A DNA stretch of 64,000 nucleotides from Selaginella tamariscina (lineage: Eukaryota; Streptophyta; Lycopodiopsida; Selaginellales; Selaginellaceae): assembly GCA_003024785.1 (NCBI GenBank), contig PUQB01000335.1, positions 173,480 to 237,479 of the forward strand, read 5' to 3'. The number at the start of each line of letters is the position of its first letter. Positions within the stretch are counted from its first letter, which is position 1. The notes below the pieces were generated by a model, which was not told the DNA's origin, searched no databases, and was given only the letters and a program-made list of their open reading frames with translations. This document shows positions 6,415 to 62,069 of the stretch, one piece after another. The position numbers were made by a program, and so were the translations under genes.

Positions 6415-6487
<73 letters not shown>

Positions 6488-10600: not shown

Positions 10601-10672
10601 CACTCAGAAGGTAATAGCGAAGAAGAATTGTTAATGAATTGTTAAAGTGACGAATAGTTGTAAATGAGTGTA
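7603..10672 (+). pseudogene. Gene B1 of unit 1: ParB-like/DNA-methyltransferase-like protein, broken
   Basis: This is a decayed copy of the gene described at 21735-24851. The start codon is ATA instead of ATG (7603-7605). The first intron (GTAAG... to ...TTCAG before 7690) is still recognisable. Frameshifts and stops occur throughout, for example near 8085. Pieces that can still be read include YMPLNQECVANVMEKMKDD (ParB-like N part, about 8510), AFAKK..HWTGFYMNDDDPKC (about 9985-10040) and the region before the C-terminal acidic tail. B2 follows in the same direction. It cannot encode a full protein. Confidence 0.7.
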
Positions 10673-10914
10673 ACATAAGGCATTTTTGTATATTTCATTT
10701 ATATTTGTACAGAAAATAAATTCTCAAGGATTAAAGAAGCTTTTAGTTTAAACATAGGTCACACATTAACAAGGTAAATAATATACCTTAATAATTATAA
10801 GGCCAGCTAACTATCATTTTGCAGATGTAATGAAACAGTTCAAAACATGAATTTTCAGCATTGACATGAGATAAGAGAGGGGTTTGACAAAAATTTCTTG
10901 TGCCACATGTCAAA

Positions 10915-11267
10915 ATGACAAAGTTCATGCAAGAAATGGATAATAATGCAGCTCAAAACATCCTTACCATGTGACCACTTCAGTTTTTGCATCACCATTT
11001 CTATTGTTTTTAATTCTTAAATAATGAAGAACGCACATATCTTAGTGGTAGACGACTCTCCTCAAAAGGCTATGCTCAACAAAAACATTGCTTGTATCCA
11101 TCTAATCACTTTCGACTCATATTCTAATATTAATACCATGGATGAGCTAGTGAACTACTTGGATACATGTTTCAAAAGAAGAATCTCGAAACTTTTGTGA
11201 GCAATATCCACTATATCAAACATTTCTGATGCTTTTCTTTCTCATGATTTTGAATTTTATAAATTGA
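10915..11267 (+). pseudogene. Gene B2 of unit 1: FCP1/HAD-like phosphatase, internally deleted
   Basis: The start region (MTKFMQEMDNNAAQNI-like) is followed by a direct jump near 11020 to the C-terminal part with ILVVDDS and the tail ending in FLMILNFIN-like residues. About 0.6 kb present in units 2 and 3 is missing, including the DVNGV catalytic motif, so this copy cannot be active. The match is to the FCP1 homology domain gene at 25098-26021. Confidence 0.7.
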
Positions 11268-11304
11268 AGGAGCAACCGGCGCTCTACAATATTATTTTAT
11301 CATA

Positions 11305-12729
11305 TGGACACTTTTCACTTCCACATTGGTCTAATGACTCTAATTTCACTATTGGGTCGTTGGCCTTGTGTTTTAGAAACCTTGAAGCCCACTCACAAAC
11401 AAGTCCTATGAGTGATCTCAAAGTGAAGAAATAACACCTTTACATAATGCTCTCATGAACACGTTTGCACTTGAGGCTACTTGAGAATATGAGAGGCATT
11501 GTCAATAGCCTGCCCAAAAATAAATAGCCATGTTGAGAGTTCTGGTTCAATGGAGGATAATTGTGCAAGCAAGAACAAAAATAAATAAATCATTTTACTT
11601 AAGGGTTTCTCAAGCTCATACTTACTTTTATTTTCTAGATATGTACAAGCATACTTGTCAATGCTTGTTGCCAAAGGTGTGTTTGAGACAAAATCACACT
11701 CAGTTTCCTTATGGTTGGTCACACTCATGAAGATATTGATGCGTTCTTCAGCAAGGTCTCCAACTTTAATAAAAAGAAACAAGTGCACTTACCTTACCGC
11801 ATATGATGAATCTTTTTTGAAAATTGCATCTCCAAAAAAGTTGTCTTTGCTTGTGACTAAGGTGCCAGACTTCAAAAAGTTTCTTAAGGAGTACATAAAA
11901 GAGGGTCACCTTGTGCGTTACAATTCTTTTCTCCATAAGAGATGGTATACCTATTATGCAGTATAAGTTACATCCATCAGAGCAAGATTGGTTATCAAAA
12001 GAGGCTCTTCAAAAGTGGAGAGGATGGAAAGCCACTTCTCCCATAAGGACAACCAAACCTTATTCTATTGGGTGCCTAGCTCAAGGAACAAGAGCTTATT
12101 ATTGATGGCATCAAAAATATGTGGCATGAGTTCAAAAATCAATGCCAAAGAATTCTGATAAGGCAACTAGTTACTCAGAACTATATAAGCATGTAATCAA
12201 CTATTTGGGAGATTATTGTTCAAGAGTTATAAGGGCCTACTATCACAAGTACATAATTACAACACACTTTTTGGCCTAAACAAGGTGGCAAGAGGAGATT
12301 GAAATGACATCAATAAGCACAAACGACATAGAAGCCAGTAGTGATGTGGAAGTGCAAACCCCACACTTTGTTGGACAAAGGAACCTAAAGCATACTTTGA
12401 TTGCTGCAAGATCTTCAAAAACTAATGATGGTCCTCATCTCCATATGTGTCATATAATCAGCCTATTTGGATGGATCAAATTATCGACACACCTGAAGTA
12501 ATCACAAAAATAATATAGTTAAGGTTGCATGGTTCAAACCACAAAAAAAGGTGACATGAGAAGGAGATCGAAAGATATAATGGATGCCTAAAGAAAATGG
12601 TCTCCCAATAAAAAAAACCCAGCATGTTTTATAAATGTTAAATCCATTCGTTATGGGTGGATGTCAAGAAGCATTGATAAAGTTACGATTAACAAAACTG
12701 CAAAAGAATGTATATTTTTTGAAGCTTAA
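11305..12729 (+). pseudogene. Gene A, 3' part, fused behind B2 of unit 1
   Basis: The sequence switches from the end of B2 to the middle of gene A at about 11305-11312 (CATATGGACACTTTTCACTT). It then continues through the IGSLALCFRNLEAHS segment, the A intron, the GHTHEDIDAFF region and the C-terminal part (QPIWMDQ, about 12465). The A intron donor, GTAAAT in other copies, is ATAAAT here (about 11580), and many frameshifts are present. The strand is opposite to gene A at the left side of unit 1. The joint is most simply a deletion or recombination between two units. Confidence 0.75.
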
Positions 12730-13229
12730 AGCAATTACAAAATTATAAAATATCGTATATTTAATATTCATAATTATAATAAACTCTTTAATAAGAGTAC
12801 CAAATTGTTTGTTTAACTATATAAATTTATAAAAAGATATGGACGATTGACTTTATTATATGGATTTATAAATTATATATATATTATTACTAGTACAAAT
12901 TTTTAATTAATGTTATATTTAAATATTAATATTTTAATAACAACATCAATATTTATATAATGTACCTCTTATGCTCTTCCTTAATTTTTATATTAGACCC
13001 ATACAATCTTATATAATATATTAATAACTTAATACCTTCTACTTTTATAATGTTATTAATTTTGGTCCACAAATGCTATAATTTTTAAAGGGTTGATTAC
13101 AAAATAGAATATTCTAAAGAATATTCTATCTTCAAACAAAGAATATTGCTTTAATATATAAAATGCTAATTAAATAATTAAAATTGTTAATTATTAAGAA
13201 ATAAGACTATAAACATCATTTTTGCACAA
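12730..13229 (+). other. A-side tail of a unit with a decayed terminal repeat
   Basis: AT-rich 3' sequence matches 46690-47188 and, reversed, 54616-55110. The end near 13200-13229 (GACTATAAACATCATTTTTG) resembles a mutated form of the terminal repeat. No gene is visible. Directly after it begins sequence of a reversed older unit. Confidence 0.5.
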
Positions 13230-13532
13230 CCACGCCTTGTGAGAGAGATCTTGCACTGCCGCTCTCACATTTCCACCCTAAGAATATACCTAAGCCCTAA
13301 AAGGAAAAAATATATATCAACCTAAACAAATATTCTTTTAAGAATATACATAAACCCTAAAAGTTAACCCTAAAGAAATATTCCTTCTAAATATACTTAA
13401 ACCTTAAAAAGAATAAAATATATTTAACCCTAAATGAATATTCTTTCATTATATTATCATAATTTTAAATTTGTGTGCGTATGTGTGTGTGGGTGTATCA
13501 CATACACCCCAAAAGATATAAATCGTAGGGAA
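13230..13532 (-). mobile_element. Left piece of an older, reversed unit split by unit 2
   Basis: The reverse complement of 5530-5880 matches this stretch, including the CCCTAAAAGG motifs and the block GGTGTATCACATACACCCCA. The same older unit resumes at 26556. Unit 2 therefore lies inside it. Confidence 0.7.
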
Positions 13533-13559
13533 TGCAAGTTGTAACTAAAATGGGCATGG
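13533..13559 (+). repeat. Left terminal inverted repeat of unit 2
   Basis: TGCAAGTTGTAACTAAAATG followed by GGCATGG. It matches the start of unit 4 (54616) and, inverted, the ends at 26529-26555 and 47163-47188. Confidence 0.8.
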
Positions 13560-13661
13560 CATAGTCCCATTTCCTAATAATTAGCAATTTAGCAATTTAA
13601 TTAGCATTTTATAATATTAAAGGAATATTCTTTAGAATAATATTTTGAAAATAGAATATCT

Positions 13662-16600
13662 TTAGAATAAATACATTCCCCTTGCAGTTTTGTTAATCGT
13701 GACTTTATCAACGCTTCTTGACATCCACCCATATCGAATGGATTTAACATTTATAAAACATGCTGGGTCTTTTTGATTGGGAGACCATGTTTTCTCTAGG
13801 CATCCATTATATCTTTCGCTCTCCTTCTCGTGTCGCCTTTTTTGTGGTTTGAACCATGCAACCTTAACAATACTATTTTTTGTGATTACTTCAGGTGTGT
13901 CGATAATTTGACCCATCCAAATAGGCTGATTATATGACGCATCTGGAGTAATGAGAACCATCATTAGTTTTTGAAGATCCTGCAGCAATCAAAGTATGCT
14001 TTAGGTTTTTGGTTCCTTTGTCCAACAAAGTGTGGGGTTTGCACTTCCACATCACTACTGGCTTCTATGTCGTCTGTGCTCAGTGATGTCATTTCAATCT
14101 CCTCTCGCCACCTTGTTTTAGGCCAAAAAGGGTGTTGCAATTCTGTACTTGTGACAGTAGGCCCTTCCAACTCTCGAACAACAGTCTCCCAATAGTCGAC
14201 CACATGCTTATATAGTTCTGAGTAACCAGTTGCCTTATCAGAATTCTTTGGCATCGATTTTTGAACCCATGCCACATATTTTTTGATGCCATCAATAATA
14301 ACCTCTTGTTCCTTGAGCTGGGCACTCAATGGAATAGGGTCTGGTTGTCCTTCTGGGAGAAGTGGCTTTCCATTCTCCACTTTTGAAGAGCATTAACCCT
14401 CTTTCGGTAACCACTCGCTCTGATGGCCGTAACTTGTACTGCATAATAGGTATACCATCTCGTATGGAGAAAAAGAATTGTAGCGGCACAAGGTGACCAA
14501 CTAAAGAATCACTCCCTCTTTTATATACTCCTTGAGAAATTTTTTGAAGTCTGGCACCTCAGTCACAAGCAAAGCACAACTTTTTTTGGAGATGCAATTT
14601 TCAAAAAGATTCATCATATGCGGTAAGGTAAGTGCACTTGTCCTTTTTGTAGAGTTGGAGACCTTGCTGAAGAACGCATCAATATCTTCATGAGTGTGAC
14701 CAACCATAAGAAAAATTGTTCAAACACACCTTTGGCAACAAGCATTGACAAGTATGCTAGCACATATCTAGAAAATAAAAGTAAGTATGAGCTTGAGAAA
14801 CCCTTAAGTAAAATGATTTACCTATTTTTGTTCTCGCCTGCACAATTATCCATCTGTAAAAGCAAATGACGAGGAAGCTTATTTGATGTTGAGGACACAT
14901 GTACACTATTTGAGCTAGATCCCTCCACTGAACCTGAACTCTCAACAGGGCCATCTGTTTTTTGTGCAGGCTGCTGACAATGCCTCTCATATTCCCAAGT
15001 AGCCTCAAGTGCAGACGTGTTCATGAGAGCATTATGTAAAGGTTGAAGGTGTTGTTTCTTCACTTTGAGATCACTGATAGGACTGTCTGTGAGTGGGCTT
15101 CAAGGTTTCTGAAACACATGGCCAACGACCCAATAGTGAAATTGGAGTCGCTAGACCAATGTGGAAGTGAAAAGTGTCCATATGACTCACAACCGTGTCC
15201 ATGTGTTAGCACACCTGTCAATGAAATCGGAAGTTTCATGACATTTCCAAGGCACTTTGGTGTTGCAACGAGCTTTGGAATGCTGGTCTTTGAATGATCC
15301 ATCTTGTCATGGATCAAGCACAGGTACTCTGATGGGTGACACAGAAAGCATGCGGTGTGCATAGTACTGAGACCGGCAAGTTTGTTGTGCAATCATGTGG
15401 GCCTCCATCTTCTTTGAATGGCAGTGATCTCCACCAAGGTTTTTGCACAAGCCTCTGCAGCCTTCAATGATGTACAAGTGTCACACTTGGAAAAGCTAGA
15501 GTGTTTTGCAATCTCCACATCCTTAAAATGAGTATTCCATATGTTGTTGAAGGTACCAGTGCAGATTGCTTGCAGCCCCATCAAACTGAGGCACTTGTTC
15601 ACATGTTCACACAGCTTCAATTGAGTGTAGATTGAAGGCAAAACCTTGAGATTTTCCCTGACCCCATTTGTGGTTATTTGTGAGGCATCCTGCTTCTTCC
15701 ACAAAAGCCTTGAGTATCTCTATGGCTGCCATAATGTGAGAGCGGGTTTTGACCAAGCGAGTGTTCCCATGTACTGAGGTTCGCGCTCCATCTAGCCACT
15801 CATCCCTCCGACGGTAGAACGTGGTCTTTGGGATCCCGTATATACTGTACCAAGCTTTGAAGCAGATGGCCACCTTATTAAATACCATGGATGTACTCTG
15901 ATAACCTGTGTCCGAGGCCATTCCATCAATACACCCAGTTAGTGCAGCATATACAAACTCATGCCTTTGCTTTTGGGTGAGCGTACGAAAGACATGTCTA
16001 CATTGGGTAATTTCATTCCGGTCTGCCATCTGACAACACTTCTTCTTGCAGCAGTCAATCGTGGAAATGCTCGTAACACTTTCGGAAGATGTAGGATCCA
16101 TCTTTACCCTCTTGCTGAAACTTGCAGGGGAAGATCTGCAACCCATGAATCGCCTTTTTCTTACAATAGGACCAATGCAAGGAACCTCTTCAAATATGAG
16201 TTGTTCTTCCGGGTTGTTATTATTGAAATCCAACCCAGAATATGTTGAACCATCTTCCGTCTTAATTCAGATGTTCGCCACCTCACGAGGGATCCAGGAT
16301 GCAAAGTGCCATTAGGTGAAACCTCTGTCACAACTACACCCACGAAGTCGGACCCTAGTTTCTCTTCTGACACTGCTTCCATTGGATTTATAGCTGTGAT
16401 GATGCCTCTCCCAACCTCAATCTCATGAAGAAAGAGAATCACCTCATCCATCACAGCAGGCAAGCCATCATCTGGAAAACTCGTGCTACTGTTTGTTTGT
16501 GACTCTATATTCTGTGTCAGCCTTGACTTCATCCAAATTCCACAATACAGGAGAACCCTCCTCAAATTCCATTCCCGAACCTCAACATGCTTGAAAATGG

Positions 16601-16732
16601 TGTTCACCCATACACACAAGATCCTTGGGCAATATTGTGACATGATGCATTATCATCTCGAACTTCCACAGTTCCAGTGCCAACTATCTCGTTGTTCCGA
16701 AGAAGACATACTTTATCTCCAGTATTATACAT
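13662..16732 (-). pseudogene. Gene A of unit 2: DUF7869-type protein, near full length but frameshifted
   Basis: On the minus strand the parts appear in order. First is an N-terminal leader (MYNTGDKVCLL). Next is a segment with VILFLHEIEVGRGI, then a basic stretch with VRKRRF, then a Cys cluster (CCKKKCC, about 16050). A helical region (TQKQRHEFVYAALTGC) follows, then CDTC (about 15480), CLIHDKMDHSKTSIP (about 15310) and LLLQMDNCAGENKNR (about 14840). After a 54-bp intron (14768-14821) come GHTHEDIDAFFSKVS (about 14690) and a C-terminal segment with QPIWMGQIIDTPEV. The Cys pairs, the HDKMD..KT.IP segment and the MDN..GENKN...GHTHED core are what I know from DUF7869 proteins. The spaced acidic residues could fit an RNase H-like core, which is inference. 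Frameshifts near 16560, 15690 and 14390 break it. The first ATG follows a CAG that could be an intron acceptor, so an upstream exon is possible. Confidence 0.8.
14768..14821 (-). other. Short intron in gene A of unit 2
   Basis: A 54-bp intron, GTAAATCATT...TTTTCTAG on the minus strand, splits the codon after GENKN. It is conserved at the same place in unit 4 (56237-56290) and unit 3 (near 45650-45706). Confidence 0.8.
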
Positions 16733-16876
16733 ATTGTCCTGCACATAAATAATTGTTATTTATGATATCTGTTTATGCAATATTTCTAAGAAATCATAAC
16801 TGCGGTTGCTTAATAATATGCATGTGCAATAATACATAATTATAAAAATATCTCATGCTTTATTAATACAACTGAT

Positions 16877-17470
16877 GGGCGGGATTAATCCCGCCCACGA
16901 CTCCATCCGACGAGGAACGATGGCGGGATTAATCCCGCCGATCTCCTCGGAGGACGCGGCGGGATTAATCCCGCCCGGACTCCTCTCGAGGAGAGCGGCG
17001 GGATTAATCCCGCCGTCTTCCTCCCGGAGGGAATCGGCGGGATTAATCCCGCCGCTCCCTCCGACGAGGAAGAGGGGCGGGATTAATCCCGCCCACAACC
17101 TGACGAGGAAAGGCGGCGGGATTAATCCCGCCCAAACTCTGACGACGGGGAATAAGCGGCGGGATTAATCCCGCCCACAATCTCTCCGAAATTATGATTT
17201 TAAAGAAATTCGGGATGAATCCTGCCACAAATATTTAAAACAGGAAGTGTGGCGAGATTAATCCCATAGATAACTCTTTTTAATAAATTCAAATATCTCT
17301 ATCAGTTGAGAGAGTTACGGCGGGATTAATCCCGCCGCTCTTCTTAAAAGGCGGAGAAGCATTGCCCGGACTAATTCTATCAAGCTATCAAAGAGATGGT
17401 GGCGGGATTAATCCCCACCTCTTCGAAAGAAAAAAAATGGCCGGATTAATCCCGCCGCCCATGCTAACCG
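16877..17470. repeat. A-side palindrome array of unit 2
   Basis: Perfect copies of GGCGGGATTAATCCCGCC start at about 16878, 16922, 16958, 16997, 17036, 17076, 17115 and 17158, a regular period of 36-44 bp. More mutated copies continue to about 17450. The spacers are of the CTCC-TCCGACGAGGAAG type and are themselves partly self-complementary. The array lies about 145 bp upstream of the gene A start. It is GC- and CpG-rich within AT-rich DNA. Confidence 0.95.
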
Positions 17471-17539
17471 AGAATATTAAATTAGAAGTATATTTAAACG
17501 GGATAAATCCTAAAAGAAATATTGTAATCCTAATACATT

Positions 17540-18410
17540 CCTAAATCCCTAAATTCTAAAATTTAAGAGAGAATGTAAGAGAGTGAATCTTTATAAATAT
17601 ATTTAAATTTGTTTATAATACTTACTTGTAAACAGCATTGAAGGCGCCGTGCTTTCCTATAAACAATAGCGCACCCAATTTAATGTCGCTCCTGAGCTGA
17701 TCACTAAGAAGAAAAAAGAAAATCTGAAGAGTGAAAAATAAAGAAATGAAGAAACCCTTGCCGAAGAAAGAACCAGATCTGAATTTGAGTGGGAAATTAA
17801 ATGCATTTTTAAATTTATATGTCAGACCGACAATACTTATGTCAGAAATTCAAAAATTTTGAAATAATAAAAAGAAAATTTAAGATGAGTTGAAACAAAT
17901 AACCGACAGTTTGACATATATATTCTTTAATTCCAATGAGTGTTTTAAAATTGCATTTAATGTCATTCAAGTGCTTCAAGCTGTTTAATATTACGAAATT
18001 TTTGTAATTATTCTACATTCTTAATATTCAAGTATATATTATTAAGTTTATATTATATATATATATACACTAATACAATAAATAAATTAATATTATTATG
18101 TATCATTTAAAATATATTCATAGTCTGTTTATTATTATTATTTTCTTAATTACTTGAGTAATTAATTTAAATTTCTACTATTAATGGGATATTCTTTATT
18201 ATTTTCTTAATATTCAAAGAATATTCCAATATTAAACCAGTCTTATTCTTAATTATCTCAGTAATTATTCTACATTTGTATATATTAATGGGATTTTCTC
18301 AATTAATTTGTTATTATTTCAAGAATATTCTAGTGTTAAACCTTATTATCAATATTAAATTAATATATATTATTAAAACTATATATGGCTATATATTAGA
18401 TAAATATAAA
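17540..18410. other. AT-rich leader block of unit 2
   Basis: Contains the conserved GAAGGCGCCGTGCTTTC block and about one copy of the 300-bp AT repeat that is amplified in unit 1. No gene is seen. Confidence 0.6.
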
Positions 18411-19385
18411 CACAATCATAAATTTATATATACACGTGCACACGCATTAGAAGCACTTACAGAGACACATATGCACACACATGCACATTACCCTAAGCCA
18501 AACTTGAGAAATTATATGTTGCTTTTTTATTGAAAAACATCATGTTCAACGCATGCATGATTTATATATACTCAGTGTGTGTGTATGTAACACATTGAAT
18601 TTACACATGTAATATATATGTATGTCTGTGTGTATACACATGTGTATGTATATATGTGTACTAATATATGCAATGTGTACGATTTTCATTTGTTAACACT
18701 CTATCTCTTCTCTCATACATACACAGTGTCACCATGCATAATCCCTTCTCTCATACATACACACCATGCATGATCATGATCCATAATATGTAGCCTGTCT
18801 CCTCTTATACATACACACAATGCATGATCCATAATATGTACTGATGTATGTAATATGTATAATGTATATCTGTGTATAACACTCACTCCTCTCATACATA
18901 AACACCATGCATGATCCATCCTAACCCTAAACCCTAAACCCTATGTAACACATTGAATTTACACATTTAATATGTATGTATGTCTGTGTGTATACACGTG
19001 TGTTGTATATGTGTGTACTAATATATGCAATGTGTATGAATTTAATTTGTTAACACTCTTTCTCTTCTCTCATACATACACACCATGCATGATCCATGTA
19101 AATATGTACTGTCTCTCTTCTCTCAAACATACACACCATGCATGATCCATAATATGTATTGTCACTCTTCTTTCATACATACACACCATACATGATCCTA
19201 TACTCTGTCTCTCTAATATTAATATGTACTAATATGTATGTATGTTTATGTGTATAATACTATGTGTGTATATATGTATCGCTACAAGTGAAACTTTAAC
19301 ACTCTCATGGACACACACGTGTTAAACCCCTGCATAATATTTATTCTTGGGGTGTATGTGATACACCCGCACACGCACACGCTGA
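18410..19385. repeat. Minisatellite with CATGCATGATCC motif, unit 2
   Basis: Several copies of a repeat of about 40-60 bp contain TCTCATACATACACACCATG, CATGATCC and ATAATATGTA. It is shared with 34980-36045 (reversed) and 60550-61150. The repeats have no meaningful reading frame. Confidence 0.85.
18929..18953. repeat. Short interstitial telomere-type repeat
   Basis: About three copies of CCCTAAA in a row within the minisatellite, also at 60779-60803. This is the plant-type telomere unit but far too short to be a telomere. Confidence 0.8.
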
Positions 19386-19409
19386 TAATATAATGAAAGA
19401 ATATTTGTT

Positions 19410-19550
19410 TAGGGCAAATCTATAGTTTATTCTTTTTAGGATTTAAGTATATTCTTAGAAGGAATATTCAATTAGGGTTAATATATATTTTATTCCTTTT
19501 AGGATTTAAGTATATTCCTAGGGTTTGTAAGGCGGTGGCGGCGGCGCAGT
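19410..19550 (+). repeat. TTTAGGATTTAAG motifs and GGCGGC tract, unit 2
   Basis: The same block as 5600-5765 and 61195-61345. Short TTTAGG motifs about 60 bp apart lead into GGCGGTGGCGGCGGCG. Confidence 0.65.
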
Positions 19551-19559
19551 GAAATCTCC

Positions 19560-19882
19560 TTCTCTCTCTCACACAGGTGAGATCTCTCTCTCTCACACGC
19601 ACACTCCTCTAAGTTTATTTATTTATTTTTATTCACATATATATTTATATGTGTGTATCTTAATAATATAATTTAGATCTCTATCTCTCGCACACACACC
19701 ATCGTATACATATACACACACACAACAACACACACACACACACAACACACACATATATATATATATACACACACAACAGATATATAATATATATATATAT
19801 ATTCCTTCTCTCTCTCGCTTCTCTATAGATCTCTATCTCTCGCACACACACGCACACTCGTATACATATACACACACAACAC

Positions 19883-19952
<70 letters not shown>

Positions 19953-20410
19953 TGTGTGTTTGTGTTATGTATCTGTATAATTTTATTAATTTATTAATTT
20001 TATCTCTTGCACACGCACGCACACTCCTGTTTATCTGTATGATTTTATTTGTTTCGCTCACACACGCATACTCACGATATACACACACACACACACACAT
20101 ATATATATAACAACATATATATATATATGTGTGTGTGTGTATCTGTATAATTTTATTGATTTGTTAATTGTATCTCTCGCACACACACGCACACTCCTGT
20201 ATATATGTGTGTGTGTGTGTGTGTTTGTTTATCTGTATGATTTTATTTGTTTCACACACACATACACACGATATACATATACACACACATATATATATAC
20301 CTATGTACATATATACATACATATATTATGTGTACCAGTATCTGTATAATTTTATTTATTTATCTATCTCTCGCACACACACGCACTCTCCTACACACAC
20401 ATATACACAC

Positions 20411-20450
<40 letters not shown>
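19560..20450. repeat. Microsatellite block of unit 2
   Basis: TG, CA and TA runs with the repeated landmarks CTATCTCTCGCACACACACG, CTGTATAATTTTATT and CTGTATGATTTTATTTGTTT. The last run abuts the palindrome array at 20455. Confidence 0.85.
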
Positions 20451-20454
<4 letters not shown>

Positions 20455-21400
20455 TGGCGGGATTAATCCCGTCGCTATATGGTGAGACGTGTATAGCGGC
20501 GGGATTAATCCCGCCGTTATATGGTGAGACGTGTGTCGGTGGGATTAATTCTGCCACTATATGGTTAGCCCCTCGGCGGCGGGATTAATTCTGCCGCTCT
20601 TCAGGCAGGCTAACCGAATAGCGGCGGGATTAATCCTGCCGGATGTCAATGCCCTGTGCGGAATCCGACGGGATTTATCCCGGCACCATTGGCCTGTTTG
20701 AAGGGCCTAGGCGGCGGGATTAATCCGCAGATTCTGCATAGGGCATTGGCATCCGGCGGATTAATCCCGCCGCGTACGCATGTCCTGCACGGAATTGGCA
20801 GGATTTATCCCGCCGCCAAAGGCCTGCCTGAAGGGCCTAGGCGGCGAGATTAATCACGCTGCCCTGTGCAGAATCGGGCGGGATTAATCCCACCGCCAAA
20901 GGCCTGCCTAAAGGGCCTAGGAGGCAGGATTAATGCCACCTGATTCCGTGCATGGAATTGGCGTCCGACGGAATTAATCCTGCCGCCTAGGGACCGAGTG
21001 AAGGGCCTGGGCCAGAATTAATCCGCCGAGCCTTCAATGCCTATTGGAAGGATGAATCCCCCACCCTTCCCTTTTTTCTTCATTGGCGAGTCGGACCAAT
21101 CCCAAACGTTTCTATCTAAGACGTAGAAGGTTTACAACATACCAATGGAGAGAACTGGGAAGGGTGGCGAGATTCATTTCACCATTCCTTACATGGTGGG
21201 CGAGATTAATCCCGCCTCTTTTTGGAGTCACTGAAGGGGTGTGCCAAATAAATCCTACCAAGTTCTCTTTAAGACCGAGAAGGGTGGCAAGATTAATTCC
21301 GCACTCCCGTTCAAGACCTCCAGAAAGGTGGCGAGATTAATCCCGCCCACTCTTTTAAGAGGCATTGAAGGGGTGGCGAGATTAATCCCGCCGCACCTTC
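20455..21400. repeat. B-side palindrome array of unit 2
   Basis: At least fifteen perfect to mutated copies of the 18-bp palindrome. The spacers differ from the A side: many are AAAGGCCTGCCTGAAGGGCC-like or carry TGCGGAAT. Mutations become frequent toward 21400 (GGCGAG, GGCAAG, CTGCC). The B1 leader follows. Confidence 0.9.
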
Positions 21401-21508
21401 CATGTATTCATATATGTGTATTAGTATATATAAGTTACATATCTTATTTTATTTACTTTTATCATCTTATCATAATATTTCGAGTAAAAGCTAGGAAACT
21501 ATGTAAAA

Positions 21509-21590
21509 ACTGTCCAGAGCTCACATTTGGGTGGTTCTAAATGAAATGTTATCTTCTTTTGCACTAGCACAAATGTGAGCTTTGGACAGT
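21509..21590 (+). promoter_or_regulatory. Inverted repeat (hairpin) upstream of B1, unit 2
   Basis: The arms ACTGTCCAGAGCTCACATTT (21509-) and AATGTGAGCTTTGGACAGT (to 21590) pair over about 21 bp with one G:T position and a loop of about 40 nt. The B1 start codon is 145 bp downstream. The hairpin is conserved at 32516-32600 and 63256-63339 and decayed at 7350. It could be a transcribed 5' leader structure or a protein site. Confidence 0.75.
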
Positions 21591-21734
21591 TAATTCCGTT
21601 CACTTCTCTCTGTGTATTATTTTTGTATATTCGGGTTTATACAAGTGTGTGTGCGTTTTTATATGATTTGTATTCATAGTGTAATTATTTTGCAGAAGGA
21701 CGATTTAATTAAATAAGGAGATCGAGTCATTAGT

Positions 21735-24700
21735 ATGGAGTCGTCGTTAAATTCTAGGTAAGAATTAAAATAAAATCTGTTATACTCAGATATGTGCTTG
21801 AACTAATCATTTTGTATTCAGATGTGGAATTAAGGTGATATTGAAGACGAGAGCAGGAGAAGAGATGGGCAGAGGGATTCTGGAATCAACTTGGCCATAT
21901 TTCAAATTAAACGGAAGCACATTGGAACAACCATGGTTGCTGTCAAACTAACCTCTGTCACATCGCATGGAAAAGCAAAACAATGGAAAGTGGGTGTGCT
22001 AGTCAAGTATCCGAAAGCATGGTGTGAACCCAGATTGAATGATGATCGACACATATGCCTTGTTCCATCCAATGTCACTTCTCGAATCCAGAGGTCGCCA
22101 GTTACAACATTAATTTCGGGTGGTCTTGTCGACTTGTGGAATAATGATGTTCACGTGTTCACTAATGATGTTGATCGTGGAGTTCTTCTTCAACTCAACG
22201 AAAGCCCATCTATGGAGGGGATCCAACTGGATGTCTACTTCGAAGATCTTCAGACTCATCGAGTAGGTGTATTCTCAGGAGATATTGCTTCACAATACAG
22301 AAAATCCACAAATGGAGCAATCGTCCCTCTTCACATTGAAGAAGAACACAGCGACATCATAAAGGAGATTGAGAGGGTGGCTTGGTCTCAGGTTCTTTAC
22401 AGATCACGTTTAATTTGCTTAGAAAATTTTGGGAGCTGGAAGAGTATGCCGAGAACATTAAAACAGCATCAATCGGGGATCACACATGTTGATTCGGATC
22501 GTAGAAGAAAATCCTCGGTCGTTTTGTCAGCTGCACCTATGGCATCCCATGCTGCAATAAGCCATAAGGAAATGATGTTGGATGATAGGATTTACGAGTG
22601 TAGGGTTAAGTATTGCAGCGTCAGCCCAAACTTCAATTACAGGCCACTCAACCAGGAACGTGTAGCTGAGCTCATGGAGAAGATGAAGGACGACAATTCT
22701 TACACCGTTCCACATAATGCTGTTTTGTGTGCATACTACGAGAGAAACAAAGGCGCTGACAAAGTGTGGATCACAACACCGGAACAAATGAGGAAGGTTC
22801 AGACGGAGAATAGAAAATCAGTTAAGTACTCATTAGTGGCCAGCACACAATAACGGCAGCCCAACGACTTCTCGACGAACACAACAAAGGAACGATGGCA
22901 ACAAAACTTTCCGAGCATACCCGTGAGAAGCTGACGAAAAGATCGGCGTTTTTAGCGAAGCCGAATCTCACAATCGAGCAGTACCATAAGTTATCGGCGG
23001 AATGGGACGCTGCAGACACCAACCACTACAACAGCAAAATATGGGAGAAGTTCAAACACACGCGAGCCGTGTGGGAATCTCTTCAGCGACCACAAAGAGC
23101 TACCGCAGGGAATACACAATCTGCGGACTACCGGGTAAGCAAATTGTTTGGGCGGGATTTATCTCGCCGGTATATTAATCTGTCTTTTTTTCAGAGAGTT
23201 GAAGAAATTGTAGCAGTTGATTTTGCCCAGGTGGGCGGGAAGGAAACATCCTTTTGATGATGTTGATTTCTTGTCCCGAGGATAGGATCTTTGCCAAATG
23301 GTTGGGGATTATGGAATCCTTTGCAAAAGGAACACTGAAGAAGAAGCAGACAAGTGAAGGGAGCCCTCAGAGAAGTCTGCAAAGAAACCCAGTAAGACGC
23401 CGAAGGCTAAGTCTGTTCAATCTATAAAGGATGTAGACAACGATTTCAAGCTCACATGGTTGAAGCCTTTAAATGGAACAACGATGGAGGAGATGGAAGT
23501 CTTGGCTGATTTGGTGATTGATGGCAAATTACAGATTAACAACAGCAGCCCCACCTCTCCTTTTCATCTCAAGGCAATGGAGTTGAAGACGGTCAGGCAC
23601 TTCAAGGAGTGGTTGGGAATACACTGCCACAAACTGGGTTGGACCTCGGCTTCAACATACGAAGAGGTCAGCAAATATTTGCATGTGACAAACGATGATA
23701 TGCTTGTCGAATGGGTGAATCAATCGGAAGATCTGGGCAAGAATCTATTGCACGCCAACGCCAAAAGGAGAACATTGCGATGACGCCTTCTCTTATGGCA
23801 GTCCTTCAGCAGCGGAGAACCGAGTTGAACCTTATAAAGGAGGATGCTACGAATCACGACAAGCCCTACAGATGTTTGTTGTTGGATTCGGAGACTTTAT
23901 GGGGTACCATCACTGCTTGTAGGAAACCGTTTCAATTGTTCGTGATGGATCGGCGGGTGTCAAAAAATCCTTCGACAGACAGGACATAGAGGATTTGGTG
24001 GAGAAACTTAGCCGTGCAAGCATGTACAAAGAAGGTATTTATTATTGAATTCATACTTGCACTCTTGACTGATATCTACGTTTTCAGGTATTTATTTCTT
24101 GATTCTTGCTCATGTCACCGATACCTTTGCCTTCGCCTTTGCCAAGAGGAATAAACATCGTTGGACAGGATTTTATATGAATGATGCTGATCCGAAGTGC
24201 ATTGATTCGGTTGTTCACTTGGTTGTTAGGAATGCGCCAAACAATTTCAAACTTCCAAATGACTGGCCAGGCATCTGTTTGCACTCCAACGGCCCTGAAC
24301 CTCCATCCGATACACCGATAGCTGAGAGTGACGTATTCGGCAATGTACGTTATCCAAACATTACAAGTCAAGCGGCACGGAGCATCGTCAACTTGATCAG
24401 GGGTCCTCACAGTGATGCGTGGGTTTTTGACTACTGCACTAGGGGGTCCGTCTTGAAGGAGTGTTACCTTCGGGATACATGTGTGTTTGCCGTTGAAAAG
24501 GATAAGACCATGGTTGAGGACCTGAACAAGTGGATAGATAGGTTCTCAACTGACTACCCCAACGAATCCATAAGGAGTATTTGAGAAAGTTCCCGATAAG
24601 TGCGATAGCTCTGAAGACGAATCTGGTTCAATGTCGGAGTCTGAGGACGAACTTCAATCAGATATTAGACCGGAAGTTATCTCGAGGAGTACAGAACATT

Positions 24701-24851
24701 CACACACTCCATTACCCATGGAAACATCAATAGAAGATACGAAGATCTTGAACCATCTCACAAGCGGCTTAGACCTTCTTCGCCTCACTCAGAAGGTAAT
24801 AGCGAAGAAGAATTGTTAATGAGTTTTAGAGTGACGAATAGTTGTAAATGA
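21735..24851 (+). pseudogene. Gene B1 of unit 2: ParB-like plus DNA-methyltransferase-like protein, frameshifted
   Basis: Four exons are visible (21735-21757, 21822-23134, 23195-24034, 24088-24851) with introns of 64, 60 and 53 bp. Exon 1 begins MESSLNSR. An N-terminal region of about 230 residues (WPYFKLNG, HVFTNDVDRGVLLQLNES) is not recognised. Then comes a ParB-like segment, YRPLNQERVAELMEKMKDD (about 22640) followed in another frame by SGQHTITAAQRLLDE (about 22835-22885). This resembles the ParB layout, although the usual Arg after G-x-H is Thr. A Lys-rich linker (KKPSKTPKAKS, about 23380) and a helical part follow. The C-terminal part has ILAHVTDTFAFAFAKRNKHR, then AWVFDYCTRGSVLKE and TCVFAVEKD. 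This order resembles motif I at the end of a beta-class DNA methyltransferase. Upstream, where a DPPY/DPPW motif would be expected, I see LLLDSETLWG instead, so catalysis is doubtful. The end is an acidic Ser-rich tail with KRLRPSS. Frameshifts near 21913, 22080, 22850, 23770 and 23955 break the gene. The family assignment is by eye only. Confidence 0.6.
23135..23194 (+). other. Intron 2 of B1 carrying a palindrome-like motif
   Basis: A GT...AG intron of 60 bp containing GGGCGGGATTTATCTCGCCG at 23150-23169, a variant of the array palindrome. Unit 3 has the same inside the corresponding intron (near 30959-30979), and unit 1 a decayed form near 8995. Confidence 0.75.
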
Positions 24852-25097
24852 GTGTAACATAAGGCATTTTTGTATATTTCGTTTATATTTGTACAGAAAA
24901 TAAATTCTCAAGGATTAATGAAGCTTTTAGTTCAAACATGGGTCACACATTAACAAGGTAAATAATATACCTTGATAATTTTAAGGTCAGCTAATTATCA
25001 TTTTGCAGATGTAATGAAACAATTGAGAACATGGATTTTCAGCATTGCATGAGGTAAGAGAGGGGTTTGGCGACAATTTCTTGTGCCACATGTCAGA

Positions 25098-26021
25098 ATG
25101 ACAGAGTTCATGCAGGAAATGGATAATAATGCAGCTCAAAACATCGTTACCATGGGGGCCACTTCAGTTTTTTCATCATCATTTTTATTGGCTTCAGTTC
25201 CGAAATCAATTTCTTCAGCGCATGCAATATCTGAATCTTGTAAGGATGATGTACAATTAAATGATGAAGGGATAGGCAACGAGATAGTGTCAACGGATAA
25301 ATGTGAAAGGGAGCAAACAAGTGATTTGCAAAGTATTCAAGAGGCAACGCTATCCATGTTACTCATGGCCATATTGTGTTGTTGGATGTCAATGGTGTTC
25401 TGCTTCATCGACAAAGGCCCGAGGATAGGAAAAAAGAAATCAAACAAGGAGATTTCATTCCTTGTCATGGTAAATTTCGATATGATATTATTTTTCGTCC
25501 AGGGTTGGATCGTCTCTTTCAAAAGCTTAAGGAGATGGGTGCGCTTGTGGGGATTTGGTCATGCATGCAGATTCATAAACTTAACACCGCTGTTGAATTT
25601 GCTTAAGAAACATTGTAGTGTTGCAGAAGAGGTGATTCGTAAAGATTGGATTTTTGACCAGCGAATGTGTTATAAACCTCTCGAATTTCACAATATAAGA
25701 AAGGAAAGCAAGCCATACTTCTTCAAGAATGAAAGAATAATTGGGACTCATGGGGAGATCAGTCGCTTAAGGATAATGAAGAATGCACATATCTTAGTAG
25801 TAGACGACTCTCCTCAGAAGGCTATGCTCAACCAAAACATTGCTTGTATTCATCCAATCACTTTCGATCCATATTCTGATACCGATATCATGGATGAGCT
25901 AGTGAACTACTTGGATACGTGCCTCAGAAAGAAGAATCTCGAAAATTTTTGTGAGCAGTATCCACCGTATCAACATTTCCTGAAGCTTTTCTTTCTCGTG
26001 ATTTTGAATTTTATAAAATGA
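25098..26021 (+). pseudogene. Gene B2 of unit 2: FCP1-like HAD phosphatase, two frame shifts
   Basis: After an N-terminal Ser- and acid-rich leader (MTEFMQEMDNNAAQN), the FCP1 homology domain appears. It includes IVLLDVNGVLLHR (about 25370, catalytic D-x-N/D motif), FRPGLDRLFQKLKEMGALVG then IWSCMQIHKLN (about 25495-25590), FDQRMC (about 25655), and HILVVDDSPQKAMLNQ (about 25790) with the invariant Asp pair and Lys. These fit HAD-type protein phosphatases that remove phosphate from Ser/Thr, as in RNA polymerase II CTD phosphatases. The substrate here is unknown. The second Asp of DxD is Asn, which I recall in a plant subgroup but did not verify. The middle part is read in a different frame from both ends, with switches near 25350 and 25600. 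It lies 246 bp after B1 in the same direction. Confidence 0.8.
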
Positions 26022-26529
26022 AGGATAGCAACCGGGCGCTTTATAATATTATTCTTAAGGAACGTCATTTTTAGATGAGCCTTTATGCAGACCTGGTCTT
26101 ATTACATCTTATGTATTAACAAGGATGGCAACTCCCAATTGCATTCGTGAGAGTGTTAAGGGGTGGCAACAACATCAAGATATTGACCAAAATGATTTGA
26201 TTAATCCGGAGAGTGATGATTTAGACAAAATGAGAAGATTTCTTATGTTAGGAAGAAAGTATTTATAAATAAATTAACATGTTGATAAGAAAATGATTTC
26301 ATTTGTAATTATGTTTGATAGTATTTTTAATTATTGTAAACTATTTTTAGAATAATATGAATATTCTAAGATATTTTAGGAATATTCCTTACTAAGTAAG
26401 GTTATTGAAGGATTAATTAATTAATTAATTAATATTTAAGGCTTAATTACATATTAATTAAATGATTAATTAATAATTAAAACTTAAGTATTAATTAGTA
26501 ATTTATTTTATATTCCCATTTTCACGTAT
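26022..26529. other. 3' region of unit 2, AT-rich
   Basis: Non-coding tail after B2, with runs of TTAATTAATTAATTAATTAA near 26413. The same tail is found reversed at 27600-28080. I see no gene. Confidence 0.6.
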
Positions 26530-26555
26530 CATGCCCACTTTAGTTACAACGTGCA
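26529..26555 (-). repeat. Right terminal inverted repeat of unit 2
   Basis: Read on the minus strand it is TGCACGTTGTAACTAAAGTG then GGCATGA, the inverted partner of 13533-13559. Confidence 0.8.
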
Positions 26556-27446
26556 TAGGGGTTAACATATGTGTGTCTATGAGAGTGTTAAATTTTCACG
26601 TGTAGCAATACATATATAGACACATATAATATATACATAAACATACGTACATAGTACATAATATTATCACGTCAGTACATATTATGAATCATGCATGGTT
26701 TGTATGTATGAGAAAAGAGAGTGTTAAAAAATTAATTTCGTACACATTGCATATATTAGTACACATATATACATATACAGGTGTATACACATAGACATAT
26801 ATACATATTACATATGTAAATTCAATGTGTTACATACACACAAACTGAGTACATAATCATATATGCGTTTCAATAAAGAAGCAACATATCTCTCCACTTT
26901 GGTTTAGGGTTTAAACCCAATGCAAGTATTTTATTATTACATATTAATATTGTATAAAAAGTCTATTATTTGTTATAAAAATATACAAGAAAACACGCAT
27001 AAAGAATTGTTGATAGTCAAGTAAATAAATAAAATCACAAATCATTTGCCGATTTATCAATTATTTTAAAAACTTCATTTTTAAAAATGCAAATTATAAT
27101 TTGCTCATACTTTAAAATTATGTATATATTTGAATTTTACCCAATTTTAACTTAAAATGACATAAGGATATTAAAAACACATTTAAAAGCAATCATAGCA
27201 CATAATATATATATTAATATAACATCTTTATACTAATGTAAACTAAATCCATGTACATTTTTCTAATTATTTAATATAAATTTACTCTAAACACTAAAAC
27301 ATATGTAAGTCCAAGTGTAGAGTGTGTGTAACTATAAATGTCCGGTTGGGATTTAAATTCTAAATCGCAAATACAAAGCTAAATGCTTTATTTATATCGT
27401 GATCCACTCATCGGCTTATGTATGTGTGTGCATATGTCTCTGTAAG
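26556..27446 (-). mobile_element. Right piece of the older reversed unit
   Basis: Reverse complement of sequence like 4690-5500 of unit 1, including GTTTAAACCCAATGCAAGTA and the CTCTGTAAGTG end. It continues the older unit interrupted at 13532 and stops against an LTR at 27447. There is no gene. Confidence 0.7.
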
Positions 27447-27581: not shown

Positions 27582-27600
27582 TGCACGTTGTAAACTAAAG
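27582..27600 (+). repeat. Left terminal inverted repeat of unit 3
   Basis: TGCACGTTGTAAACTAAAG, with one extra A compared with other copies. Confidence 0.75.
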
Positions 27601-28119
27601 TTTGCATGATACGTGAAAATGGGAATATAAAATAAATTACTAATTAATACTTAAGTTTTAATTATTAATTAATCATTTAATTAATATGTAATTAAGCCTT
27701 AAATATTAATTAATTAATTAATTAATTAATCCTTCAATAACCTTACTTAGTAAGGAATATTCCTAAAATATCTTAGAATATTCATATTATTCTAAAAATA
27801 GTTTACAATAATGAAGAAATACTATCAAACATAATTACAAATGAAATCATTTCTTATCAACATGTTAATTTTTTTATAAATACTTTCTTCCTAACATACA
27901 AGAAATCTTCTCATTTTGTCTAAATCATCACTCTCCGGATTAATCAAATCATTTTGGTCAATATCTTGATGTTGTTGCCACCACTTAACACTCTCACGAA
28001 TGCAATTGGGAGTTGCCATCCTTGTTAATACATAAGATGTGATAAGAGAAGGTCTGCATAAAGGCTCATCTAAAAATGACGTTCCTTAAGAATAATATTA
28101 TAAAGCGCCCGGTTGCTAT
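27601..28119. other. 3' region of unit 3, AT-rich
   Basis: Mirror of 26022-26529, with the TTAATTAA run near 27705-27728. No gene is seen. Confidence 0.55.
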
Positions 28120-28122
28120 CCT

Positions 28123-29037
28123 TCATTTTATAAAATTCAAAATCACGAGAAAGAAAAGCTTCAGGAAATGTTGATACGGTGGATACTGCTCACAAAAATT
28201 TTCGAGATTCTTCTTTCTGAGGCACGTATCCAAGTAGTTCACTAGCTCATCCATGATATCGGTATCAGAATATGGATCGAAAGTGATTGGATGAATACAA
28301 GCAATGTTTTGGTTGAGCATAGCCTTCTGAGGAGAGTCGTCTACTACTAACATCTGTGCATTCTTCATTATCCTTAAGCGACTGATCTCCCCATGAGTCC
28401 CAATTATTCTTTCATTCTTGAAGAAGTATGGCTTGCTTTCCTTTCTTATATTGTGAAATTCGAGAGGTTTATAACATTCGCTGGTCAAAAATCCAATCTT
28501 TACGAATCACCTCTTCTGCAACACTACAATGTTTCTTAAGCAAATTCAACAGCGGTGTTAAGTTATGAATCTGCATGCATGACCAAATCCCCACAAGCGC
28601 ACCCATCTCCTTAAGCTTTTGAAAGAGACGATCCAACCCTGGACGAAAAATAATATCATATCGAAATTTACCATGACAAGGAATGAAATCTCCTTGTTTG
28701 ATTTCTTTTTTCTATCCTCGGGCCTTTGTCGATGAAGCAGAACACCATTGACATCCAACAACACAATATGGCCATGAGTAACATGGATAGCGTTGCCTCT
28801 TGAATACTTTGCAAATCACTTGTTTGCTCCCTTTCACATTTATCTTGACACTATCTCGTTGCCTATCCCTTCATCATTTAATTGTACATCATCCTTACAA
28901 GATTCAGATATTGCATGCGCTGAAGAAATTGATTTCGGAACTGAAGCCAATAAAAATGATGAAAAAACTGAAGTGGCCCCCATGGTAACGATGTTTTGAG
29001 CTGCATTATTATCCATTTCCTGCATGAACTCTGTCAT
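28123..29037 (-). pseudogene. Gene B2 of unit 3: FCP1-like HAD phosphatase, frameshifted
   Basis: Same gene as 25098-26021, on the other strand. It starts MTEFMQEMDNN at 29037 and ends FFLVILNFIK at 28123. LLDVNGVLLHR lies near 28750 and LVVDDSPQKAMLNQ near 28330. The switch of frame near 28540, before KKHCSVAEEV, is at the same place as in unit 2. A further shift in the Lys run near 28705 is private to this copy. B1 lies upstream on the same strand. Confidence 0.8.
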
Positions 29038-29300
29038 TCTGACATGTGGCACAAGAAATTGTCGCCAAACCCCTCTCTTACCTCATGGCAATGCTGAAAA
29101 TCCATGTTCTCAATGTTTCATTACATCTGCAAAATGATAATTAGCTGACCTTAAAATTATCAAGGTATATTATTTACCTTGTTAATGTGTGACCCATGTT
29201 TGAACTAAAAGCTTCATTAATCCTTGAGAATTTATTTTCTGTACAAATATAAACGAAATATACAAAAATGCCTTATGTTACACTCATTTACAACTATTCG

Positions 29301-32300
29301 TCACTCTAAGAACATTAACAATTCTTCTTCGCTATTACCTTCTGAGTGAGGCGAAGAAGGTCTAAGCCGCTTGTGAGATGGTTCAAGATCTTCCGTATCT
29401 TCTATTGATGTTTCCATGGGTAATGGAGTGTGCGAATGTTCTGTACTCCTCGAGATAACTTCCGGTCTAATATCTGATTGATTGTTCGTCTCAGACTCCG
29501 ACATTGAACCAGATTCGTCTTCAGAGCTATCGCACTTATCGGAGGGAACTTTCTCAAATACTCCTTTATGGATTCGTTGGGGTAGTCAGTTGAGAACCTC
29601 TATCCACTTGTTCAGGTCCTCAACCATGGTCTTATCCTTTTCAACGGCAAACACATGTATCCGAAGGTAACACTCCTTCAAGACGGACCCCCTAGTGCAG
29701 TAGTCAAAAACCCACGCATCACTGTGAGGACCCCTGATCAAGTTGACGATGCTCCGTGCCGCTTGACTTGTAATGTTTGGATAACGTACATTGCCGAATA
29801 CGTCACTCTACTATCGGTGTATCGGATGGAGGTTCAGGGCCGTTGGAGTGCAAACAGATGCCTGGCCAGTCATTTGGAAGTTTGAAATTGTTTGGCGCAT
29901 TCCTAACAACCAAGTGAACAACGAATCAATGCACTTCGGATCAGCATCATTCATATAAAATCCTGTCCAACGATGTTTATTCCTCTTGGCAAAGGCGAAG
30001 GCAAAGTATCGGTGACATGAGCAAGAATCAAGAAATAAATACCTGAAAAAGTAGATATCAGTCAAGAGTGCAAGTATGAATTCAATAATAAATACCTTCT
30101 TTGTACATGCTTGCACGGCTAAGTTTCTCCACCAAATCCTCTAGTGTCTGTCTGTCGAAAGGATTTTTTGACACCCGCGATCCATCACGAACAATTGAAA
30201 CGGTTTCCTACAAGCAGTGATGGTACCCCATAAAGTCTCCGAATCCAACAACAAACATCTGTAGGGCTTGTCGTGATTCGTAGCATCCTCCTTTATAAGG
30301 TTCAATCGGTTCTCCGCTGCTGAAGGACTGCCATAAGAGAAGGCGTCATCCCAATGTTCTCCTTTTTGGCGTTGGCGTGCAATAGATTCTTGCCCAGATC
30401 TTCCGATTGATTCACCCATTCGACAAGCATATCATCGTTTTCACATGCAAATATTTGCTGACCTCTTCGTATGTTGAAGCCGAGGTCCAACCCAGTTTGT
30501 GGCAGTGTATTCCCAACCACTCCTTGAAGTGCCTGACCGTCTTCAACTCCATTGCCTTGAGATGAAAAGGAGAGGTGGGCTGCTGTTGTTAATCTGTAAT
30601 TTGCCATCAATCACCAAATCAGCCAAGACTTCCATCTCCTCCATCGTTGTTCCATTTAAAGGCTTCAACCATGTGAGCTTGAAATCGTTGTCTACATCCT
30701 TTATAGATTGAACAGACTTAGCCTTCGGCGTCTTACTGGGTTTCTTTGCAGACTTCTCTGAGGGCTCCCTTCACTTGTCTGCTTCTTCTTCAGTGTTCCT
30801 TTTGAAAAGGATTCCATAATCCCCAACCATTTGGCAAAGATCCTATCCTCGGGACAAGAAATCAACATCATCAAAAAGGATGTTTCCTTCCCGCCCACCT
30901 GGGCAAAATCAACTGCTACAATTTCTTCAACTCTCTGAGAAAAAAGACAGATTAATATACCGGCGAGATAAATCCCGCCCAAACAATTTGCTTACCCGGT
31001 AGTCCGCAGATTGTGTATTCCCTGCGGTAGCTCTTTGTGGTCGCTGAAGAGATTCCCACACGGCTCGCGTGTGTTTGAACTTCTCCCATATTTTGCTGTT
31101 GTAGTGGTTGGTGTCTGCAGCGTCCCATTCCGCCGATAACTTATGGTACTGCTCGATTGTGAGATTCGGCTTCTAAAAACGCCGATCTTTTCGTCAGCTT
31201 CTCACGGGTATGCTCGGAAAGTTTTGTTGCCATCGTTCCTTTGTTGTGTTTGTCGAGAAGTCGTTGGGCTGCCGTTATTGTGTGCTGGCCACTAATGATG
31301 TAGTACTTGATGATTTTCTATTCTCCGTCTGAATTTCCTCATTTGTTCCGGTGTTGTGATCCACACTTTGTCAGCGCCTTTGTTTCTCTCGTAGTATGGC
31401 ACAAAACAGCATTATGTGGAACGGTGTAAGAATTGTCGTCCTTCATCTTCTCCATGAGCTCAGCTACACGTTCCTGGTTGAGTGGCCTGTAATTGAAGTT
31501 TGGGTTGACGCTGCAATACCCTACACTCGTAAATCCTATCATCCAACATCATTTCCTTGTGGCTTATTGCAGCATGGATGCCACAGGTGCAGCTGACAAA
31601 ACGACGAGATTTTCTTCTTATCCGAATCAACATGTGTGATCCCCGATTGATGCTGTTCTAATGTTCTCGGCACACCTTCCAGCTCCCGAAATTTCTAAGC
31701 AAATTGAACGTGATCTGTAAAGAACCTGAGACCAAGCCACCCTCTCAATCTCCTTATGATGTCGCTGTGTTCTTCTTCAATGTGAAGAGGGAATTGCTCC
31801 ACTTGTGATTTTCTGTATTGTGAAGCAATCTCTCTGAGAATACACCTACTCGATGAGTCTGAAGATCTTCGAAGTAGACATCCAGTGGATCCCCTCCATA
31901 GATGGGCTTTCGTTGAGTTGAAGAAGAACTCCACGGTCAACATCATTAGTGAACACGTGAACGTCATTATCCACAAGTCGACAAAACCACCCGAAATTAA
32001 TGTTGTAACTGGCGACCTCTGGATCCGAGAACGTGACATTGGATGGAACAAGGCATATGTGTCGAGCATCGTCAATCTGGGTTCACAGCATGCTTTCGGA
32101 TGCTTGACTAGCACACCCACTTTCCATTGTTTTGCTTGTCCATGCGATGTGACAGAGGTTAATTTGACAGCAACCATGGTTGTCCAATGCGCTTCCCGTT
32201 TAGTTTGAAATATGGCCAAGTTGATTCCAGAATCCCCCTGCCCATCTCTTCTCCTGCTCTTTCTTTAATGTCACCTCAATTCCACATCTGAATACAAAAA

Positions 32301-32373
32301 TGATTAGTTCAAGCACATCCGAGTATAACAGATTTTATTTTAATTCTTACCCAGAATTTGACGACGACTCCAT
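29301..32373 (-). pseudogene. Gene B1 of unit 3: ParB-like plus methyltransferase-like protein, frameshifted
   Basis: This copy keeps the ATG (32371-32373; MESSSNSG) and the first intron (32288-32350). The ParB-like segment reads YRPLNQERVAELMEKMKDD (about 31450) and KYYIISGQHTITAAQRLLD (about 31290). The latter shows the hydrophobic strand plus G-x-H that made the ParB similarity apparent. A 2-base loss near 31172, damage near 30820 and others break the frame. The C-terminal tail (SDIRPEVISRSTEHSHTPLP...KRLRPSS...EEELL) is read openly from 29504 to 29301, which supports the stop chosen. The methyltransferase-like parts are as in unit 2. Confidence 0.6.
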
Positions 32374-33451: not shown

Positions 33452-33495
<44 letters not shown>

Positions 33496-62068: not shown

Positions 62069-62069
62069 G

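Follow-up and report, generated by a model that had tools for sequence, protein, structure and literature searches.

What is the repeated unit that fills positions 13532..26556 of this stretch of Selaginella tamariscina DNA, and has it moved as an element in its own right? The window, by which we mean the whole 64-kb stretch analysed (G000:C655:173480-237479, from an assembly of 300.7 Mb in 1,391 contigs), holds four related units by self-comparison, the second of which (unit 2, + strand) a sequence-only reading had taken for a giant plant DNA element with terminal inverted repeats (TIRs), encoding a DUF7869 protein, a ParB/methyltransferase-like protein and an FCP1-like phosphatase. We find that unit 2 is a complete copy, from a terminal A to a terminal T (a boundary set from 42 end pairs), of a recently mobile DNA transposon of about 14 kb that is present in many hundreds of copies. 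The element also carries two arrays of a palindrome, a feature that is new here and absent from the earlier reading.

The ends are abundant and specific. The 26-mer TGCANGTTGTAACTAAARTGGGCATG, which stands at both ends, has 1,361 + 1,314 = 2,675 exact matches in the genome, compared with 0 for its reversed control, and the 33-mers of the left and right ends have 901 and 1,018. The left TIR of unit 2 is TGCAAGTTGTAACTAAAATGGGCATG (13533..13558, + strand) and the right one TGCACGTTGTAACTAAAGTGGGCATG (26530..26555, - strand). Within the window, GTTGTAACTAAA is matched four times with at most one mismatch, against a chance expectation of 0.53, and 1 of 100 shuffles also reached four. The two recurrent end types are TGCAA... 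on the left and TGCAC... on the right, and there is a TGCAT variant too. Pairs of ends were picked by eye among the matches listed for the end patterns, restricted to listed partners within about 22 kb of each other and with loci L116-L118 kept out of the statistics; the 42 comprise 37 pairs that were fetched and 5 more taken from the window and further loci. Because, in contig orientation, 41 of the 42 left ends have an A immediately outside TGCA, and 40 of the 42 right ends a T, we place the true terminus one base further out, at ATGCA, the inverted ends being ATGCAnGTTGTAACTAAA. The inverted TGCA repeats of about 26 bp proposed for the complete copies are thus to be extended by this base. 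Of the four window units, unit 2 alone retains both ends in good condition. At one other locus (L059, G000:C84:1164-8233), a 6.7-kb element that shows the TGCAT end variant has the DUF7869 half enclosed by two left-type ends, of which the second is inverted.

Just outside ATGCA...TGCAT, 19 of the 42 pairs carry the same four bases on both sides, whereas shuffling the partners 5,000 times gave 0.85 such pairs on average and never more than 5. The duplicated words are of varied sequence. The expectation that many copies would be flanked by duplications of one fixed length is thus borne out, with a 4-bp target-site duplication (TSD). In unit 2 the TAGGG described on both flanks resolves into a 4-bp TSD, AGGG (left copy at 13527..13530, right copy at 26557..26560), plus neighbouring bases, and the unit fails the strict test because an extra A sits between the left AGGG and ATGCA. 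Insertion without any TSD, which the first 10 pairs had suggested, was overturned by the offset analysis, and TGCA itself is ruled out as the TSD by its absence from empty sites. Such unoccupied paralogous sites were clear for 5 of 19 joined flanks: the L062/063 site is matched at ~99% over 388 bp in several copies and at 97% at window positions 27632-28021, and the others at ~90% (L072/073), 88% (L079/080), ~82% (L052/L005) and 93% (L115). Two further joined flanks (L105/106 and L077/078) gave microsatellite-like or partial matches only, and the remaining 12 had no empty-site match among the sequences compared.

These data also bear on whether the shared ends are merely part of a tandem array or of segmental duplications on a larger scale, a reading that is invited by four units lying within 64 kb, by one nested copy that travels with its host repeat, and by one pair of flanks that is 98.6% alike up to the junction. 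Comparison of 78 outer flanks, taken from the 37 fetched pairs and from units 2 and 3, showed similarity in just 4 pairs, one of which is alike up to the junction, over 148 bp and on opposite sides; homology in general therefore stops at the element ends, and continuation past TGCA at all copies, named beforehand as the result that would overturn the transposon, is not seen. Together with the diverse TSDs, the empty sites and the spread of 100 ends over dozens of contigs among the matches listed, this makes segmental duplication a very improbable account. The one pair alike up to the junction consists of the right flank of L064/L065 and the left flank of L089/L090, which are the same host sequence, and reflects either two insertions close together in a single repeat or contig redundancy.

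The nine whole copies range from 11.9 to 15.0 kb in length (2,500 N are included in the shortest), and the earlier description of a giant element holds, as does its expectation of many copies. The closest pair of whole copies is 98% identical, and copies C87 and C7 differ by 36 substitutions across 14.7 kb. The same two copies differ by 61 one-base insertions or deletions, 22 of them in homopolymers; since these outnumber the substitutions, assembly errors are one likely cause of the broken reading frames described below. The two halves of the element are similarly frequent in the genome, where a 42-base motif of the DUF7869 gene has 1,500 exact matches and a 39-base one from the FCP1-like gene has 1,588. 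Some copy counts may be doubled by contig redundancy, because G000:C426 and G000:C913 (L119, L120) have identical flanks around a shorter, 4.0-kb derivative, which suggests redundant contigs.

One such derivative is L115, a 4,016-bp copy that joins the left 3.8 kb (the end and the DUF7869 gene, with broken frames) to the right 220 bp and has neither arrays, gene 2 nor gene 3; it has the TSD ACAG, and its empty site is present. Its internal junction occurs at four loci, all of which share the TSD and the near flank and must therefore represent one insertion copied along with a host repeat, which rules out a separately spreading family of 4.0-kb derivatives. Nor does L115 prove that the accessory part is dispensable, because loss of its interior after insertion would produce an identical structure.

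Which protein moves the element? On the - strand of unit 2, the DUF7869 gene consists of a first exon (14821..16772, with a provisional start codon position) encoding the first and second conserved Asp, an inferred 54-nt GT-AG intron (14767..14820) that is identical in 9 of the 10 copies inspected (the exact anchor was missing from the other one), and a second exon (13660..14766) encoding GHTHEDID and the third conserved acid. Both exons are open in copy C84, whose spliced protein matches Pfam DUF7869 with E 9e-47, as the sequence-only reading had supposed, and DUF7869 is the sole Pfam match of this 1,021-residue protein at E up to 1. Its homologues include proteins of liverwort, mussel, sea urchin and sea cucumber, the best-scoring one with a named organism being from the liverwort Riccia sorocarpa (31% identity); a search of viral contigs gave 87 pattern matches, of which 0 were confirmed. 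Three acidic residues, D192, D353 and E392 in the numbering of P0003, are invariant among 25 homologues and correspond to D484, D637 and E676 in the element. The AlphaFold2 model (predicted local distance difference test, pLDDT, 76; predicted template modelling score, pTM, 0.69) has an RNase H-like fold. Ranked by Z score, its top 12 structural matches (7.3-7.7) comprise retroviral integrases, Mos1, Metnase/SETMAR and a single Argonaute; IstA follows at rank 14, and TnsB stands further down. We take DUF7869 to be the transposase because of this predicted integrase/transposase-like fold and the conserved D-D-E residues, and the element most likely moves by this predicted enzyme. Raw synonymous to non-synonymous counts in exon 1, a sign of constraint in these copies, were 27:19 in C1b, 22:14 in C69, 18:14 in W2 and 19:14 in W4. 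Sequence searches of the PDB found no useful match for the DUF7869 protein. The alternative that another transposase acts in trans, with DUF7869, gene 2 and the FCP1-like gene all travelling as cargo, is unlikely given a D-D-E core that is invariant across the 25 homologues, a set that includes several named liverwort and animal species, and given that no other transposition enzyme scored above the Pfam cut-off in the element's open reading frames tested.

The two genes on the + strand are harder to place. Gene 2 (21769..24822) encodes an orphan protein and has at least one inferred intron. Its supposed ParB/methyltransferase character was not upheld: a 920-residue composite has no Pfam match at all, to ParB, methyltransferase or otherwise, at E up to 10, three pieces have no NCBIfam match at E up to 1, and searches of 508 and 6,521 candidates, taken from ~5.8 billion proteins, gave no homologue at E 0.001. 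The resemblance comes down to short look-alike strings. The AlphaFold2 model, at pLDDT 29.9, is uninformative about the fold. Between subfamilies, gene 2 has a synonymous excess in its middle parts and not at its ends (synonymous to non-synonymous counts of 37:31 in C69 and 33:23 in W2 for the ParB piece, and of 23:12 in C69 and 18:7 in W3 for the middle piece). Gene 3 (25130..26265) does encode the expected FCP1-like protein, with a NIF/FCP1 domain (PF03031, E 1.5e-12 in copy C65; 47.9 bits against a cut-off of 21.8). Phosphatases of this family usually have the catalytic motif DxDx(T/V); gene 3 reads DVNGV in all 10 copies searched, the second Asp being replaced by Asn, and sequence searches of the PDB gave no useful match for this protein.

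Between the divergent genes lie the arrays of the 18-base palindrome GGCGGGATTAATCCCGCC; the DUF7869 gene and gene 2 each have one of them upstream. In unit 2, with up to 3 mismatches allowed, array 1 has 11 sites (16878..17456, near the DUF7869 gene start) and array 2 has 15 (20456..21392, near the gene 2 start), and one more site lies at 23151 inside gene 2, where most copies have one. At this threshold 34-46 sites each were counted in C87, C84, C65, C29, C7, C14, C3, C69 and the cut-off unit 4, whereas unit 2 has 27, unit 3 has 18, unit 1 has 6 and C1b, the copy with 2,500 N, has 16. All 85 window sites fall within the four units, and no site arose when the C87 sequence was shuffled by mononucleotides 20 times. 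With up to 4 mismatches, C87 has 42 sites and C69 has 35, at a median spacing of 44-45, and the spacers between them vary. Information per core column is 1.5-2.0 bits in C87 and 0.9-2.0 in C69, against 0-0.6 and 0-0.8 in the flanking columns; choosing sites by their match to the core, with up to 4 mismatches, raises the core values and leaves the low flank values unaffected. The arrays might be plain minisatellites spread by slippage, with no binding protein involved, as would suit their tandem layout, a number that varies between copies (10 exact cores in W2, 28 in C65) and the additional longer periods of 79 and 118 bp. Slippage, however, would copy spacers along with cores, and here the spacers share little information (a contrast inflated by the choice of sites) and one core is common to two separated arrays; we therefore consider simple slippage rather unlikely.

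The genome contains 27,128 exact copies of GGCGGGATTAATCCCGCC. Among the matches listed (100 of the 27,128, all on contig C1), every site lies within 12 kb of an element landmark, compared with just 14% of random positions. This association has to be set against the possibility that a transcription factor of the host binds the arrays and thereby activates the element in certain cells or at a certain cell-cycle stage. The half site GGCGGGA does resemble E2F-type sites, yet all the sites listed lie near the element (host genes elsewhere lie outside this comparison), and we regard a host factor as possible but doubtful. Our best guess is that the arrays are putative operator or anti-silencing sites, by analogy with the VANDAL transposons of Arabidopsis and their VANC proteins. 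For VANDAL21, VANC is described as binding a short motif that is tandemly repeated in noncoding parts and as causing loss of DNA methylation (PMC5735166). The likeness lies in a multi-gene element, short-motif tandem arrays in noncoding parts, array size that varies and enrichment in the element (PMC5735166); here, too, the motif is element-specific among the 100 sites listed and stands in noncoding tandem arrays. The two differ in that VANDAL elements have a MULE transposase and the motif YAGTATTAY, and ours a DUF7869 protein with 4-bp TSDs and an 18-bp palindrome. Motif binding and anti-silencing, described for VANC, are putative for the present arrays, and homology to VANC was compared through Pfam.

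Taken together, these observations are very probably best explained by a cut-and-paste TIR DNA transposon with a DUF7869 transposase, accessory genes 2 and 3, and arrays that are putative protein-binding sites. Inverted ends, 4-bp TSDs, empty sites, numerous very similar long copies and the predicted RNase H-like core with its D-D-E residues all support this reading. The DUF7869 protein would bind the ends, excise the element by cutting at the ATGCA termini and insert it at staggered 4-bp cuts, and gene 2 and the FCP1-like gene 3 would be accessory. The arrays, near two divergent promoters, might be sites for a dimeric DNA-binding protein, perhaps one encoded by the element, for which gene 2 would be the first candidate; such sites could be operators or could counter silencing in the manner of VANC in VANDAL elements. 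A bolder version, which we hold only tentatively, is that DUF7869 represents an unrecognised DDE superfamily with 4-bp TSDs and that this giant member has a sequence-specific control system of its own, in which the gene 2 protein binds ~40 palindromes per copy and tens of thousands across the genome, either keeping the divergent promoters open, as a second invention of the VANC type, or serving in partition or bridging. The sopC iterons of plasmids are a parallel for repeated binding sites in partition and bridging.

Several observations weigh against the transposon reading or parts of it. An exact TSD at the set offset is absent in 23 of 42 pairs, unit 2 among them, although some of these may be recombined ends, and the TSD-bearing 4.0-kb copy without gene 2, gene 3 or arrays fits a short insertion as well as later shortening. 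All Z scores of the DUF7869 model are below 8, which by the tool's guidance may reflect just a shared arrangement, and Foldseek gave no DUF7869 match reaching E 0.001, the best being Tn5 at 5.7e-3. Constraint is uneven: synonymous to non-synonymous counts are 53:96 (W1), 32:48 (W3) and 14:21 (L059) in DUF7869 exon 1, 9:21 (C29) in exon 2, 45:54 and 10:18 in the first and last pieces of gene 2 (both C69), and 6:8 (C69) and 9:20 (C1b) in the FCP1-like gene. Gene 2 is not a single open frame in any of the 10 copies scanned, and the apparent conservation of the array cores is raised by having chosen sites for core similarity.

Helitrons, which have neither TSDs nor TIRs, are ruled out by the presence of both. 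Elements of the Sola superfamily produce a 4-bp TSD. We know of no Sola element with such accessory genes and arrays. The likeness to Sola, compared by description, consists of the TSD length commonly ascribed to it, the TIRs and an RNase H-like transposase, Sola being assigned to an RNase H-like clade (PMC3985635). CACTA/EnSpm elements have CAC...GTG termini and a 3-bp TSD (PMC12730594); they resemble ours as multi-gene plant DNA transposons, and close to the N-terminus Transposase_23 is matched weakly (E 0.044, under the cut-off), but they are ruled out by the ATGCA...TGCAT ends, the 4-bp TSD and the DUF7869 core. Membership in MULE/VANDAL was likewise rejected, as no MULE-type transposase was found by Pfam at E up to 1 in the 1,021-residue protein. 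Fungal DNA transposons with TET/JBP are alike in combining a transposase with an extra gene that possibly counters host silencing, and differ in superfamily, cargo and fungal hosts (PMC12730594). The element is a TIR DNA transposon, neither CACTA nor MULE by the tests run, and may belong to a new superfamily. Within the open-licence literature, bioRxiv being outside the scope, we found no description of this element, no paper on DUF7869 and, by title and abstract start, none about a repeat with the 10-base palindrome centre.

The other window units preserve the same plan to varying degrees. In element orientation all four have DUF7869 on the - strand and gene 2 and the FCP1-like gene on the + strand where reached, so the shared order and divergent arrangement first reported stand, with the qualification that three of the four copies are altered or incomplete. 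Unit 1 (753..13222, + strand) is more diverged and rearranged, with the 3' half of DUF7869 inverted at 11300-12726, and no terminus was detected in it even with up to 6 errors allowed. Unit 3 (27582..47188, - strand) is a reversed copy with a mutated right end, interrupted by a pair of direct repeats (36046-36476 and 41294-41708, 92% alike) that are likely the long terminal repeats of an inserted retrotransposon, and unit 4 (54615..64000, + strand) runs off the window end. Between units 3 and 4, an open reading frame at 50740-51240 matches a retroviral-type aspartyl protease (PF08284, E 1.7e-05) and is probably a retrotransposon fragment. A more diverged DUF7869 gene fragment at 49731-50242 (~75% identity) is a trace of an older or related family.

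If this reading is true, transposition would be a function for DUF7869, a domain of liverwort, mussel, sea urchin and sea cucumber proteins. The element is an unusually large DNA transposon, and it may make up about 7% of the S. tamariscina genome (~1,500 copies x 14 kb / 300.7 Mb), a rough share that holds if the copies are nearly full-length and the contigs free of redundancy. Should the arrays bind a protein of the element, sequence-specific anti-silencing by a transposon would become testable outside Arabidopsis.

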